A stretch of DNA of 11,850 bases from Thermomicrobiales bacterium (GTDB taxonomy: Bacteria; Chloroflexota; Chloroflexia; Thermomicrobiales; UBA6265). This document shows, in pieces, positions 21 through 11,722 of this stretch. How positions within the stretch are numbered: position 1 is the stretch's first letter; each line of letters begins with the position of its first letter. The notes under the pieces were generated by a model that made no database searches, was not told the DNA's origin, and was given only the letters and a program-made list of their open reading frames with translations. The translations under genes and the position numbers were made by a program. The DNA lies in the NCBI GenBank assembly GCA_025937615.1, contig JAICRA010000011.1, forward strand, positions 1 to 11,850, in the 5' to 3' direction.

Positions 21-96
<76 letters not shown>

Positions 97-2196: not shown

Positions 2197-2925
2197 ATGA
2201 ACCGTACTCACGGTAAAGGTTCCGCGTGCCTCGTCGCACTCGTTGCTGGTTTCTTGCTGGTAGGTTGTGCGGAAGAGGATGCCGGTCCCCAATTTGCGAC
2301 TGACCCCAGGCCCACGCGCGCTCCTACAGAGGCCGTCACCTCACCGTCCCCAGCGCTTCTTCCAACAGCAGAGTCAGCGGCAACCCCGGTGGCAACCCCT
2401 GCCTCCTTCACAGATCTTCTTGCGGTTCGTGGCGCCGCGTCCGTTGTCCATGTTGTTTCCCGCAATGTCGTCTGGTCGATCGCCGGCGACGGGGAGGCGA
2501 CCCAACTCTTCGAGGCGCCGGATGATTCCACCATCGTCGCCACGGATTCGTCACCCGACGGGCAAGAGGTTGCGATCCTCCTGGAGGAAAAGTCAGCCGA
2601 GCGCCCGACGGCGCAAGTCGTCATCGTCGATTCAGCCGGATCAATTGTCGGTCAGTTCGGCGCTCCCGTCGGGTCCTCGGCTACTCCGGTCCCCGAAGCC
2701 GGCGGTATCTCGCAATCGATTGACTGGTCCCCGCAAGGGGATCGAGTTCTCGCACAGCTCGAAACCGGGGAAGTGATCGAGATCCTCGTCGATGGCGGCG
2801 AACCGCCGATCGCACTCGACTTCGCCGGTGCGGGTGGCACAGTGATTGAGCCCGCCTGGTCTCCTACTGGGCAAAGCATTGGGTTCATCTCGGAGAGCGA
2901 AGACGACGACATGCGATCCTTGTGA
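2197..2925 (+). CDS. lipoprotein with beta-propeller-like repeats, N-terminal part, ended by premature TGA
   Basis: The ATG at 2197 has a GGAG 3 nt upstream. Residues 1-24 form a lipoprotein signal peptide: basic MNRTHGKGS, hydrophobic CLVALVAGFLLVG, and lipobox L-V-G-C with C24 as the lipidated residue. A Pro/Thr/Ala-rich linker (about 31-70) should hold the following domain off the membrane. After it come WD40-like/TolB-like (PD40-type) propeller units, shown by SPDGQEVA (119-126), WSPQGDRV (177-184) and WSPTGQSI (221-228). The frame stops at TGA 2923-2925 after 242 codons, in the middle of a repeat, and continues open in the same frame to 3486. The whole gene would encode about 429 residues. 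Its biological role is unknown; a surface-anchored propeller is inferred. As it stands, the product is a truncated propeller unlikely to close. Confidence 0.75.
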   Translation: MNRTHGKGSACLVALVAGFLLVGCAEEDAGPQFATDPRPTRAPTEAVTSPSPALLPTAESAATPVATPASFTDLLAVRGAASVVHVVSRNVVWSIAGDGEATQLFEAPDDSTIVATDSSPDGQEVAILLEEKSAERPTAQVVIVDSAGSIVGQFGAPVGSSATPVPEAGGISQSIDWSPQGDRVLAQLETGEVIEILVDGGEPPIALDFAGAGGTVIEPAWSPTGQSIGFISESEDDDMRSL

Positions 2926-2973
2926 ATCCTCGACATCGGAACGGGCGAAATCAGGACCGTCGTTACCCCGCTT

Positions 2974-3486
2974 TTGGGACGGCTTGTCGTGGACTTCGCC
3001 TGGTTGCCCGACGGCGTGTCCCTGCTGTTCACCGAAGGCGGCGGGCCAGGCAGCGCGATCACCGGAATCGACCTGTGGCGGGTCGACGACAGCGGCGAGA
3101 ATCGTGAGTTGGTCGCCAGCGCAGGAACGGTGGCCCCCGTTGCCAGGATCGCCAAACTAAGTCCGTCACCGGATGGCCGAAGCGTGGCGTATGCGGTGCT
3201 TGTCCCAGGGGCCGGAGGCCCCGCAGCCGACAGCGTGTGGGTGCGGAGCCTTGCGTCGGGCATTGGCTTCCGCATCGCATTGCCCTCGGTTGCGTCCATT
3301 GAAGACATTTGGTGGACCGAGGAGGGACTCGTAGTCTCGGTCGTCACTGGTCCAACAGCGCAGGGGCGGCCTCCGACTCGAGCACTTCTTCAGGTTCAAC
3401 GGGACGGGGCGATAGGCGCCCTGTGGGCGGAGCCCGCCGCCGCTCCGGCAGCCGCTACGCCGGAAGGACCTGCTGGCTCACCCTAA
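2974..3486 (+). pseudogene. C-terminal part of the interrupted beta-propeller lipoprotein
   Basis: This is in the same reading frame as the upstream lipoprotein fragment. The frame is open from directly after the TGA (2926) to TAA at 3484-3486; the first possible restart is TTG at 2974, with no clear ribosome binding site. It carries further propeller units: FAWLPDGVSLLF, IDLWRVDDSGE, LSPSPDGRSVAYA and DSVWVRSLASG. It ends in an Ala/Pro-rich tail (AEPAAAPAAATPEGP). It has no signal peptide of its own, so it would not reach the cell surface if made separately. The motifs are undecayed, pointing to a very recent mutation, a sequencing error, or stop-codon readthrough. Its stop overlaps the dnaX stop on the other strand. 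Confidence 0.7.
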
Positions 3487-9068: not shown

Positions 9069-9098
9069 TTGACAAAGAATCGTCACATGCCATACGAT
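9069..9098 (+). promoter_or_regulatory. probable sigma-70 promoter of the ilv operon leader
   Basis: A perfect -35 TTGACA (9069-9074) is separated by 18 bp from a -10 TACGAT (9093-9098, four of six consensus bases including TA...AT). Transcription would start near 9104-9106. That puts the leader-peptide start codon about 40 nt, the attenuator hairpin about 180 nt, and ilvB about 290 nt into the transcript. A second -10-like GATAAT at 9113-9118 lacks a -35. Confidence 0.6.
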
Positions 9099-9143
9099 TC
9101 ACGACGCTGGTGGATAATCCGCCTAAAGTGTGGTGCAGGATCG

Positions 9144-9230
9144 ATGAGATCTTCATTTGCAAGCATCATCATTTCCTCGGTAGCGGGCCTCGTACTTACG
9201 GGGCTCCCGGTAGGGGGCCGCGTGCGCTAA
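9144..9230 (+). CDS. ilv operon leader peptide (Ile/Val/Leu-rich)
   Basis: The frame starts at ATG 9144, with AGGA at 9137-9140, and ends at TAA 9228-9230, encoding 28 residues. It contains three Ile in a row (codons ATC ATC ATT, 9165-9173), then four Val and three Leu (V13, L16, V17, L18, L21, V23, V27). Ten of 28 residues are the end products of the pathway encoded downstream. This is the expected control peptide of a ribosome-mediated attenuator: a ribosome short of Ile-, Val- or Leu-tRNA would stall within it. The stop codon lies directly against the G-rich antiterminator strand at 9231. The frame is also open further upstream, to an ATG at 9087, but that lies inside the promoter. There is no homology-based support; the call rests on composition, position and RNA structure. 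Confidence 0.75.
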   Translation: MRSSFASIIISSVAGLVLTGLPVGGRVR

Positions 9231-9306
9231 GGGGGGCCATCAAGTCGGCGGAAGCCGAAAACAATGTAGACGAGTTTCTGGATCGGCCTCCCACCAGTGG
9301 GAGGCC
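9202..9306 (+). promoter_or_regulatory. transcription attenuator of ilvBN: competing antiterminator and terminator
   Basis: Four segments can pair in exclusive ways. Segment 1 is GGCTCCC (9202-9208). Segment 2 is GGGGGGCC (9231-9238), with a second copy GGGGGCC at 9213-9219. Segment 3 is GGCCTCCC (9285-9292). Segment 4 is GGGAGGCC (9299-9306). Segments 3:4 form the terminator stem. Segments 2:3 form an 8-bp helix with a single G-U, which would prevent it. Segment 1 can pair with either copy of 2 (7 bp, one G-U). A ribosome at the leader stop (9228-9230) would cover segment 2 and allow termination. One stalled at the Ile codons (9165-9173) would leave segment 2 free to antiterminate. A 5-bp hairpin with a GGAA tetraloop (9245-9258) sits between segments 2 and 3. 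Confidence 0.72.
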
Positions 9307-9311
9307 ATTTT
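9285..9311 (+). terminator. intrinsic terminator (attenuator) before ilvB
   Basis: GGCCTCCCA (9285-9293) and TGGGAGGCC (9298-9306) form a perfect 9-bp stem with a CCAG loop. ATTTTG follows, a short T tract of four. It lies 82 bp before the ilvB ATG and downstream of a leader peptide, so it is placed to stop transcription before the structural genes rather than after a gene. The short T run makes its strength uncertain. Confidence 0.75.
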
Positions 9312-9392
9312 GATGTCAAGGATCAAGGGCATGATTGTGAGAAGTGCGGGGACCCGGATGTACCGGTCGGTAACCTAGGGACGGGGTCAGTG

Positions 9393-11150
9393 ATGGCAGG
9401 GACCGGGACCACAACGGCGTGGACATCGCCGGACCGAACGAGCTCCGGACGTGGAAAAAAGGAACGGCCGGTGCTGACGGGGTCGCAAATCGTTTGCCGG
9501 GCGCTCGAGGACGAAGGCGTGGATACGGTTTTCGGCTACCCCGGCGGTGCGGTGATCCCGCTGTACGATGCGTTGCCAGGAGCCGGGTTTCACCATGTCC
9601 TGGTCCGGTTCGAGCAATGGGCGGCGCTCGCGGCCGAAGGGTACGCGCGTGCGACTGGCAAGCCTGGCGTTTGCCTCGCCACGTCGGGTCCGGGCGCGAC
9701 CAACCTGGTCACCGGGCTCGCCGATGCCATGCTTGACTCGGTCCCAATTGTCGCCATCACCGGACAGGTGATCCAACCACTCATCGGCCGCGATGCCTTC
9801 CAGGAAGTCGACATTACGGGCATCACTTTGCCGGTCACGAAGCACAATTATCTGGTCAATCGCATTCAGGACCTGGCTCCGACATTCAAAGAGGCGTTCC
9901 ACCTGGCCACAACCGGCCGGCCGGGACCGGTGCTGATCGACATCCCGAAAACTCTCTTCCTCCAAAAACATGAGTACGAGTATCCCGAAACCGTGTCCCG
10001 GCGCGGGTACCAACCGACATCAGTTCCAAACATGCGGCAGGTGCGGCTGGCGGCGGAGGCGATAAGAAAGGCGCGCAAGCCGCTGATCATGGCGGGCCAC
10101 GGCATCATGTTGAGCGGCGCGACCGGGTTGTTCCGGACGTTTGTCGAAAAGACCGGCATTCCCATCGCGTATACGCTCCTTGGTCTCGGCTCGTTCCCCG
10201 AGGAGCACCCTCTTGGGCTGGGGTTGATGGGCATGCACGGGCACAGGCATGTCAACGACGCCCTCGATGAGTGCGACCTCCTGATCAACATCGGGGCGCG
10301 ATTCGACGACCGGGCAACTGGCCAGGTCAGCGGGTTCGCGCAAAACGCGTTCGTCGTTCACGTCGATATCGACCCGGCCGAGATCGGGAAGAACGTCCGC
10401 ACCGACGTTCCTGTGGTCGGCGACGCCGCCGAAGTACTGAGGCTGTTGATCCCTGAAGTCGAGGGGGCCTGCCATGACGACTGGATGGCCTGGATCGATT
10501 CGCGGCGCGACCGAGCCCTCGACGAGGCGCTCGAGGAGCGGCCGGCATGGCCGGAGCCGTACACCATCGTCAAGTCGATTGCCGAGGCGACAAATGGTGA
10601 GGCAATTCTGACCACCGACGTCGGGCAGCACCAGATGTGGGCGGCCCAGCACTTCGGCTTCAATCACCCAGACCGTTGGATCACGTCGGGTGGCCTCGGC
10701 ACGATGGGTTTCGGCTTGCCATCGGCGATCGGGGCCAAGATCGGCCGGCCCGACCTCGAGGTTTGGGCGGTGATCGGGGACGGTGGTTTTCAAATGTCCT
10801 GCAACGAGCTCGCGACGGCCGTGCAGGAGAACCTCGACCTCAATATCGCGATCATCAATAACGGGTATCTCGGGATGGTCCGCCAGTGGCAGGACCTCTT
10901 CCACTCCAAGAATTACTCCGAGGTCAAGATCGGCGCACCGAATTTCGAGAAGCTTGCGGAGGCGTATGGCATTACGGGAATTACCGTGCGCTCTGACGCG
11001 GAGATTCGTCCGGCGATCGAACGAGCGCGAGCGATCCGTGGACCGGTGCTCATCGACTTTGTGATCGAGCCCGAAGCAAACGTCTGGCCGATCGTCCCGC
11101 CCGGTGCCGCGAATTCCGGGATGCTGCACAAGCAGCGATTTGAAGGGTAG
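9393..11150 (+). CDS. ilvB: acetolactate synthase, large (catalytic) subunit
   Basis: The ThDP-, FAD- and Mg-dependent enzyme joins two pyruvates to 2-acetolactate (Val/Leu branch), or pyruvate and 2-ketobutyrate to 2-aceto-2-hydroxybutyrate (Ile branch). I chose ATG 9393 (585 aa), with GGGG 6 nt upstream. An in-frame GTG at 9297 would start inside the terminator hairpin and is unlikely. Visible features are VFGYPGGAVIPLYDA (47-61), the ThDP-activating Glu E74 in VRFEQWAALAAEGYARATG, TSGPGATNL, RDAFQE (133-138), FDDRATG, the ThDP/Mg motif from GDG (462-464) to NN (489-490), and QWQDLF with W499, the Trp associated with 2-ketobutyrate preference. FEQWA replaces the more usual HEQGA. Residues 1-25 are a variable lead. 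ilvN follows after 8 bp. Confidence 0.96.
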   Translation: MAGTGTTTAWTSPDRTSSGRGKKERPVLTGSQIVCRALEDEGVDTVFGYPGGAVIPLYDALPGAGFHHVLVRFEQWAALAAEGYARATGKPGVCLATSGPGATNLVTGLADAMLDSVPIVAITGQVIQPLIGRDAFQEVDITGITLPVTKHNYLVNRIQDLAPTFKEAFHLATTGRPGPVLIDIPKTLFLQKHEYEYPETVSRRGYQPTSVPNMRQVRLAAEAIRKARKPLIMAGHGIMLSGATGLFRTFVEKTGIPIAYTLLGLGSFPEEHPLGLGLMGMHGHRHVNDALDECDLLINIGARFDDRATGQVSGFAQNAFVVHVDIDPAEIGKNVRTDVPVVGDAAEVLRLLIPEVEGACHDDWMAWIDSRRDRALDEALEERPAWPEPYTIVKSIAEATNGEAILTTDVGQHQMWAAQHFGFNHPDRWITSGGLGTMGFGLPSAIGAKIGRPDLEVWAVIGDGGFQMSCNELATAVQENLDLNIAIINNGYLGMVRQWQDLFHSKNYSEVKIGAPNFEKLAEAYGITGITVRSDAEIRPAIERARAIRGPVLIDFVIEPEANVWPIVPPGAANSGMLHKQRFEG

Positions 11151-11158
11151 GGGGCATC

Positions 11159-11722
11159 GTGAAGAATCGTCACACGCTGAGCGTTCTCGTCGAGGATCAC
11201 CCCGGGGTCCTCAACCGGGTGGTCTCGCTGCTGCGCCGGCGCTCATTCAACATCGACTCGATCACGGTCGGGCATTCGGAGCAGCCCGGGGTCTCACGCA
11301 TGACCATTGTCGTCATCGGCCGGGACGAAGAAGTGGAGCAGGCCGGTAAGCAACTTTACAAGCTCATGGAAGTGCTGAAGGTCATCGACGTGACATCGTT
11401 GAACTGTGTCGCGCATGAGATGGCGCTGATCAAAGTGGCGGCAAAATCTCAGACGCGGTCAGAAATCCTGCAGATCGCGCAGATTTATGACGCGCGGATC
11501 GTCGATGCCAGCCCGACGACCTTGCTGATCGAAGCCACCGGCGCGGAAACCCACATCGATGGATTGCTGAACATGTTGAAAGCGTTCGGCATCCGGGAGC
11601 TCGTCCGAACTGGCCCGGTCGCGATGATGAGCGGATCAACGACGGTCGGCGTTAAGGAAAGCTCTCGCCCGGAGCGGGAACTGGCGGTTGCCGGCAACGG
11701 CTCGACGCCACACGCGAACTGA
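11159..11722 (+). CDS. ilvN: acetolactate synthase, small (regulatory) subunit
   Basis: IlvN (also named IlvH) binds the large subunit, raises its activity, and in most bacteria confers feedback inhibition by valine. The product is 187 aa with an N-terminal ACT domain, HTLSVLVEDHPGVLNRVVSL (5-24). The family stretch RRRSFNIDSITVG (26-38) and the typical second half, beginning EMALIKVAA, follow. The last 25 residues (about 163-187) form a variable polar tail beyond the usual family end. The GTG start at 11159 has AGGGGG (11149-11154), which overlaps the ilvB stop TAG; the 8-bp gap suggests translational coupling. The stop is TGA. The gene shares the attenuated ilv transcript and is followed 113 bp later by the probable ilvC. 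Confidence 0.96.
   Translation: MKNRHTLSVLVEDHPGVLNRVVSLLRRRSFNIDSITVGHSEQPGVSRMTIVVIGRDEEVEQAGKQLYKLMEVLKVIDVTSLNCVAHEMALIKVAAKSQTRSEILQIAQIYDARIVDASPTTLLIEATGAETHIDGLLNMLKAFGIRELVRTGPVAMMSGSTTVGVKESSRPERELAVAGNGSTPHAN

Follow-up and report, generated by a model that had tools for sequence, protein, structure and literature searches.

The window, the whole 11,850-nucleotide stretch of DNA that was analysed, reaches its end after two genes for acetolactate synthase. The large subunit gene, ilvB, was identified by TIGR00118 (742 bits), and the small subunit gene, ilvN, by TIGR00119, NF008864 and PF10369. A gene for a DUF3090 protein lies 5' of the ilvB leader region, on the same strand. The nearest genomes belong to the same genome-database class as a Sphaerobacter MAG. 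Sphaerobacter is filed under Thermomicrobiota by NCBI and is placed in Chloroflexota by GTDB. The features identified in front of and including the two genes are the following.

9069..9098, plus strand: promoter, with TTGACA at 9069-9074, an 18-nt spacer and TACGAT at 9093-9098
9137..9140, plus strand: possible weak ribosome-binding site AGGA, read from the sequence, 3 nt from the ATG
9144..9230, plus strand: leader peptide frame MRSSFASIIISSVAGLVLTGLPVGGRVR, 28 codons, ATG at 9144 and stop TAA at 9228-9230, kept in relatives
9165..9173, plus strand: three Ile codons ATC ATC ATT, candidate control codons from the codon listing
9189..9198, plus strand: CTCGTACTTA, comprising the control codons Leu-Val-Leu (CTC GTA CTT) and the first base of the next codon, strongly conserved
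9202..9219, plus strand: in-leader hairpin GGCTCCC/GGGGGCC, a predicted fold and candidate pause hairpin
9231..9241, plus strand: antiterminator 5' strand (segment 2) GGGGGGCCATC, immediately 3' of the leader stop, from the predicted fold
9245..9258, plus strand: small hairpin within the antiterminator loop, a predicted fold
9281..9292, plus strand: antiterminator 3' strand (segment 3), of which 9285-9292 also belongs to the terminator 5' arm
9285..9311, plus strand: intrinsic terminator, with a 9-bp stem at 9285-9306, a 4-nt loop (CCAG) and then ATTTT
9393..11150, plus strand: ilvB, acetolactate synthase large subunit, likely start ATG 9393
11159..11722, plus strand: ilvN, acetolactate synthase small subunit

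The initial annotation had read most of this arrangement from the letters, and the parts are where it placed them. The TTGACA/TACGAT promoter is present, and it is the one such site in 901 bases (the shuffle mean is 0.2). The 28-codon frame contains three consecutive Ile codons, four Val and three Leu, and the G-rich strand proposed to follow its stop codon is GGGGGGCC at 9231-9238, directly 3' of the TAA. The 9-bp terminator hairpin with its T tract precedes ilvB, beginning 54 nt past the leader stop; the likely start of ilvB is 162 nt past that stop. Pairing of 9231-9238 with 9285-9292 over 8 bp was confirmed and includes one G-U pair. A second G-rich strand, absent from the initial annotation, occupies 9213-9220 in the 3' arm of the in-leader hairpin and could also pair with the terminator arm. 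Our automatic choice of segment 2 in the window fell at 9213 rather than 9231, and we therefore name both. The T tract is short in the window (four T), and many relatives have six. At 9308-9315 the four T are followed by GATG, and a run of at least five T leading directly into GATG lies downstream of the terminator in 10 of 27 upstream regions from near relatives.

The proposal of an ilvBN(C) operon held for ilvB and ilvN, which are in the window, and had to be extended for the genes beyond. Downstream reading of five relatives gave the order ilvB-ilvN-ilvC-leuA-leuC-leuD-leuB in every case. For L254, the assignment of ilvC and the leu genes was by NCBIfam families, with ilvN under the strict limit set there; L255-L258 were read by match to the L254 proteins and have the same order. 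This gene content fits a leader with codons for all three branched-chain amino acids.

Taken alone, the window leader is unremarkable. Its best ten-residue Ile/Val/Leu score is 6, and five of 40 dinucleotide shuffles equalled it. Since the frame by itself is not significant, relatives were collected, and it is from them that significance comes. A protein scan of named genomes (at least 80 loci) gave, as the best among the matches listed, Sphaerobacter sp. HOG56 at 58% identity. Within the class, IlvB was identified at the threshold used in 138 of 158 genomes, one group of which is 72-90% identical to the window protein. The survey covered 131 regions upstream of ilvB, from the window and 130 genomes of this one class; eight IlvB-positive genomes were left out, namely G009 and, as partial matches, G035, G070, G107, G109, G112, G150 and G159. 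A search of viral contigs for IlvB returned eight loci at 43-50% identity, which were not used further.

Each region was scored for a frame in which some ten-residue stretch holds five or more Ile/Leu/Val, with a T-tailed hairpin no more than about 170 nt further on. Leader and terminator were found together in 100 of 131 real regions, compared with five of 131 shuffled regions and 11 of 131 reverse strands. With the Ile/Val/Leu threshold raised to 7, the counts out of 131 are 88 real, 0 shuffled and 2 reverse. A leader score of at least 8 occurs in 57% of 130 regions, but in only 0.3% of shuffles and 3% of reverse strands. A separate run on the 131 regions, with slightly different limits, gave 104 with leader and terminator, 12 with a frame for which no terminator was found and 15 below the leader threshold. 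Among the 12, several (for example L181, L187, L197, L211 and L213) show a leader-like stretch. From the 104 we dropped L150, L167, L183 and L198 by eye, where the frame or hairpin looked wrong, although L183 nevertheless shows a leader and a CCTCCC-type terminator. The resulting 100-locus set, used below, is thus distinct from the 100 of 131 counted in the first run. In four regions with no leader directly before ilvB (L192, L195, L200 and L201), an upstream frame reads like the C-terminus of IlvD, which suggests that ilvB there is inside a longer operon and that any leader would lie further upstream. A leader-like frame and terminator were also seen, in one look each, in Thermosporothrix (L010), a Thermoflexales MAG (L023) and the MAG L017.

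The initial annotation had staked its reading on relatives having the leader frame and the hairpin. Both are kept, as is the promoter. The near set comprises 27 sequences, the window and 26 other loci (L116 was left out, as its contig begins downstream of the leader). In all 27, the best-scoring promoter-like pair has TTGAC[A/G] and a spacing of 17-18 nt and lies 44-90 nt ahead of the leader start, and 26 reach at least 10 of 12 matches, a level found in 0.6% of shuffles. CTCGTACTTA is exact in 23 of the 27, including the window, and is followed in this set by an in-leader hairpin of the GCTCCC/GGGAGC type. Six of the 27 have a three-base insertion in the loop of this hairpin, and none has a frame-breaking insertion there. 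Of 32 near genomes searched for the motif, 25 gave a match, a single one in 23. G144 and G145 have a second match, with one mismatch, on another contig, and in G150 and G162 the match is on contigs other than the ilvB piece; no clear second copy was seen in the rest, and one may exist in these four.

Covariation, which the initial annotation had named as a check, was found in part. Across the 27 near sequences, 93.1% of cells are paired in the in-leader hairpin, with one CG to AU change, and 90.9% in the terminator stem. For the two together the figure is 91.9%, and shifting the partner by one, two or three columns lowers it to 63.6% or below. In five pairs both sides have changed, a number that none of 500 shuffles reached. 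Of these five, two lie at stem ends and form in 14 and 9 of the 27 sequences, and the other three concern one sequence each. Thus, compensatory changes are present in the leader hairpin and terminator, and few of them fall in the solid part of the stems. For segments 2 and 3, the MAFFT alignment of the near set places segment 2 one base out of register, so pair counts were discarded and swap comparisons used instead.

These comparisons show that segment 2 varies along with the terminator arm across the 100 loci. The arm contains CCTCCC in most of them, and elsewhere CCTTCCGC, CCTCTCGG, CCTCCGG, CCTCCTGG or CCCCCC. Among 58 distinct arms, own partners pair better than swapped ones, and none of 5000 permutations was as good; relatedness between the loci was not removed from this comparison. 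One locus, L156, fails it, with 31 of 91 foreign regions pairing at least as well. Pairing of segment 2 beats letter shuffles at p 0.05 in only 50 of the 100 loci, of which the window is one (0.02).

The control codons are of unusual kinds. In the 27 near leaders, GTA accounts for 71% of the Val codons (72 in all), CTT for 34% of the Leu codons (112) and ATT for 67% of the Ile codons (81); the corresponding figures in 28 ilvB bodies are 2%, 6% and 14%. Third-position GC in these leaders, counted over codons before segment 2, is 0.44 for Ile/Leu/Val codons and 0.80 for other codons. In the remainder of the class the trend is alike but weaker (GTA 54%; third-position GC 0.465 vs 0.636). We considered base composition alone as the cause, and it is insufficient because the other codons of the same leaders show the bias much less. 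The control codons, as read from these sequences, are rare synonyms by selection or through some RNA constraint. Elf and colleagues reportedly proposed in 2003 that the choice of regulatory codons follows the sensitivity with which the charging of their tRNAs declines, and the preference for rare synonyms in these leaders is a natural data set for that idea.

We modelled the folds by dropping all RNA behind the ribosome and placing its front edge 13-15 nt beyond the A site. In the window, before the 3' arm of the terminator is made, a core pairing of 9231-9241 with 9281-9292 is predicted with probability 0.97 in untranslated RNA. With a stalled ribosome on this incomplete RNA, the predicted antiterminator probability is 0.76 (Leu16), 0.80 (Leu18) or 0.996 (Ile8). 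With the ribosome on the stop codon it is predicted to be 0, and the complete RNA would form the terminator at 0.965. Thus, covering or freeing segment 2 switches the predicted structure before terminator completion, in the way that the initial annotation had suggested. In the stop-state model of the window, pairing of the terminator arm with other upstream sequence is still 0.63 at the point where the 3' arm has yet to be made.

The same tendency is present in the wider set. In 94 of 100 loci, upstream pairing of the terminator arm in incomplete RNA is greater by over 0.2 with a stalled ribosome than with one on the stop codon, and the reverse occurs in none. The mean stall-stop difference is 0.48 in these loci and 0.14 in shuffled leaders; as shuffled leaders still give 0.14, part of the effect is geometric. 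The window itself has a difference of 0.26, which one of eight shuffles exceeded (0.48). Distances were taken for the 87 loci in which segment 2 has at least six pairs. The leader stop ends between -7 and +39 nt from the start of segment 2, with a median of 11, and it is within 21 nt in 67 of the 87, so that a ribosome at the stop would be close enough to hinder segment 2.

At full-length equilibrium the picture changes for the stalled state. The terminator is predicted for the window at 0.70 (Leu16) and 0.876 (Leu18), and the antiterminator for Ile8 only (0.935). Averaged over the stall codons, the terminator is below 0.5 in 13 of 27 near loci and 22 of 100 loci overall, and in the stop-codon state it is predicted above 0.8 in 100 of 100. 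Because the stalled state is often the terminator at equilibrium, antitermination must rest on the antiterminator forming first and holding.

The features found here are those of ribosome-mediated attenuators: an apparent short leader frame, rich in codons for the end products and kept in relatives; an intrinsic terminator between the leader and the first gene; and a predicted antiterminator that shares the terminator 5' arm and excludes it. Thus, the element before ilvB is very probably a ribosome-mediated transcription attenuator, judging from sequence comparison and folding models. The attenuation reading of the initial annotation is strengthened by the leaders and terminators of relatives, the matching of partners and the fold switch predicted for incomplete transcripts.

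From the computed elements, their conservation, the partner matching and the fold switch, we infer how transcription start, translation, stalling, pausing, termination and the response to amino acids would follow one another. RNA polymerase would start shortly past 9098, some tens of bases 5' of the leader frame, and the in-frame hairpin at 9202-9219 probably pauses it until a ribosome arrives. A shortage of charged Ile, Val or Leu tRNA would stall the ribosome on ATC ATC ATT, GTA or CTC GTA CTT. Segment 2 (9231-9241) would then be free to pair with segment 3 (9281-9292) before the 3' arm of the terminator is made, and this antiterminator would allow transcription of ilvB-ilvN and, by analogy with the relatives, of ilvC-leuACDB. 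When amino acids are plentiful, the ribosome would reach the stop at 9228-9230 with its footprint over segment 2. Segment 3 could then pair with 9298-9306, and transcription would end near 9311.

The behaviour of RNA that carries no ribosome is a separate matter within attenuation. Untranslated RNA might itself terminate through a protector pairing that frees the terminator, making three states, or termination may follow from a stop-codon ribosome only, making two. We give the three-state version somewhat less than an even chance. At full-length equilibrium, the terminator is the predicted fold of untranslated RNA in 22 of 27 near loci and 92 of 100 overall, the untranslated terminator arm is little paired upstream in L176 (0.01), L156 (0.14) and L208 (0.15), and the G-rich arm of the leader hairpin in the window can pair with the terminator arm too. 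However, untranslated full-length window RNA is predicted to antiterminate (0.785, with the terminator at 0.206, or 0.30 with another 5' end), because the hairpin at 9202-9219 does not contain segment 2, and before terminator completion the arm is upstream-paired above 0.5 in 19 of 27 near loci. Antitermination of the untranslated full-length RNA is predicted for five of the 27 (the window, L102, L108, L109 and L111) and for eight of 100 overall.

The leader peptide could instead act by reinitiation, translational coupling or Rho-dependent termination, with no part for an intrinsic hairpin. One proposal is that a leader gene increases the translation of a gene close to it (PMC4833913, in the portion of the article available). 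Against this explanation, the likely ilvB start lies 162 nt beyond the leader stop, and a T-tailed intrinsic hairpin follows the leader in 100 loci. We consider this explanation very unlikely.

The conservation of CTCGTACTTA led us to consider a riboswitch or a protein-bound element, and this candidate was set aside as the wider class keeps the codon content in varied letters. In its broader form, this alternative holds that the terminator is coupled to a riboswitch that binds a metabolite or a tRNA (such as a T-box or a ppGpp riboswitch) and that the short frame is incidental. Riboswitches too have a terminator with an alternative pairing, T-boxes do precede ilvB in four class members and two Dehalococcoidia loci (below), and CTCGTACTTA is conserved at the nucleotide level. 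Nevertheless, the feature that recurs in the class is a tight cluster of Ile/Leu/Val codons whose sequence varies, and no Rfam family was identified in the window leader at the gathering score, with chance-level matches up to E 10. A riboswitch with an incidental frame is thus highly improbable, and attenuation by a translated leader remains the preferred reading.

The search against Rfam leader families suggested in the initial annotation was carried out, and no family scored above its threshold in this region of the window. At the gathering score, the sole match in the window is a distant tRNA. Up to E 10 the leader gave chance-level matches only, and the nearest leader family is Phe_leader at 15.9 bits, where 55 are needed. 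The T-box riboswitch family (RF00230) has no Rfam match in the window. In 20 relatives there was no match to a peptide-leader family, and two of the 20 matched T-box. Rfam was run on 35 of the 131 class regions, window included, so further T-boxes may exist.

T-box matches of 106-147 bits were obtained in L160 (395-612), L162 (374-583), L169 (357-571) and L170 (340-555). Each of these four loci also has a Leu/Val/Ile leader with its own terminator between the T-box and ilvB. These class members therefore have, by their sequences, what appear to be two sensors of tRNA charging in series before one ilvB. The apparent T-box specifier, from the layout of the element, we take to be CUC (Leu). This sublineage is a possible intermediate between two ways of sensing one signal. 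A T-box also precedes ilvB in two of three Dehalococcoidia or Dehalococcoidales loci (L004, 2961-3222; L009, 3647-3908).

The best-known cases of leader-peptide attenuation come from Proteobacteria and Actinobacteria. In the class surveyed here, which lies outside those groups, it seems to be how ilvB is normally controlled, and many different sequences are available for comparison. The enterobacterial attenuators of ilvGMEDA, ilvBN and leuABCD have Ile/Val/Leu control codons, a pause hairpin, and an antiterminator that competes with a terminator. The window element shares the control codons, a candidate pause hairpin and the two competing folds; it differs in lacking a match to an Rfam leader family and in its predicted untranslated state. 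A broad survey of attenuation by Lopatovskaya and colleagues in 2010, cited in PMC4833913, may cover some of these genomes.

The ilvBNC leader of Corynebacterium (ilvB-II motif, PMC10272879, as far as its accessible text goes) is similar in having an in-frame start and stop, branched-chain codons, a terminator and an alternative antiterminator before ilvB. Its uORF is usually 15-17 codons, compared with 28 here, and its antiterminator uses the loop of P1, which the uORF spans, whereas the strand used here follows the stop codon (PMC10272879, same text). Unlike that ilvBNC operon, the operon in the five relatives continues through leuACDB. Actinobacterial ilvB leader peptides, in the part of PMC1262725 that describes them, are also short frames with Ile/Val/Leu runs and a poly-U terminator before ilvB, but the frame overlaps the terminator hairpin, while the antiterminator strand here lies between the stop and the terminator. 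The same part of PMC1262725 states that changed leader codons in an ilvB leader of Streptomyces coelicolor were without effect, which counts against the attenuation reading. T-box ilv-leu leaders, such as that of B. subtilis ilvBNC-leu (PMC12452182, in the portion available), have the same genes, the uncharged-tRNA signal and the terminator/antiterminator output. A T-box binds the tRNA directly and involves no peptide, and none was found in the window.

In open-access literature on leader peptides or attenuation in Chloroflexi, Chloroflexota, Thermomicrobi- and Roseiflexus, we found no apparent description of this element in the available portions of the articles, which include PMC4833913, PMC9413887 and PMC12452182. 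In the part of PMC4833913 that bears on this, Chloroflexi are among the groups too thinly sampled for its leader-gene diagrams. As far as these searches show, the mechanism is of a known kind, and what is new is its occurrence across the class, the rare control codons and the sublineage with T-box and leader in tandem. The most extended reading joins several of these points: control across the phylum; a sensor built on the rare codons GTA, CTT and ATT; read-through as the default without a ribosome in the window, L102, L108, L109 and L111, where a stop-codon ribosome alone would terminate; and a T-box/leader tandem that may reflect replacement of one sensor by the other in evolution. We offer this combination tentatively and regard it as rather doubtful.

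Two further observations concern the 5' part of the window. A lipoprotein-like frame at 2197-3486 (plus strand), which on reading has the look of a beta-propeller protein, carries a single in-frame stop at 2923-2925 and is open on both sides. Its first 242 residues have no Pfam or NCBIfam match, and it is either a disrupted gene or a sequence error. A tRNA-Lys (CTT) gene (21-96, minus strand) adjoins gatA.
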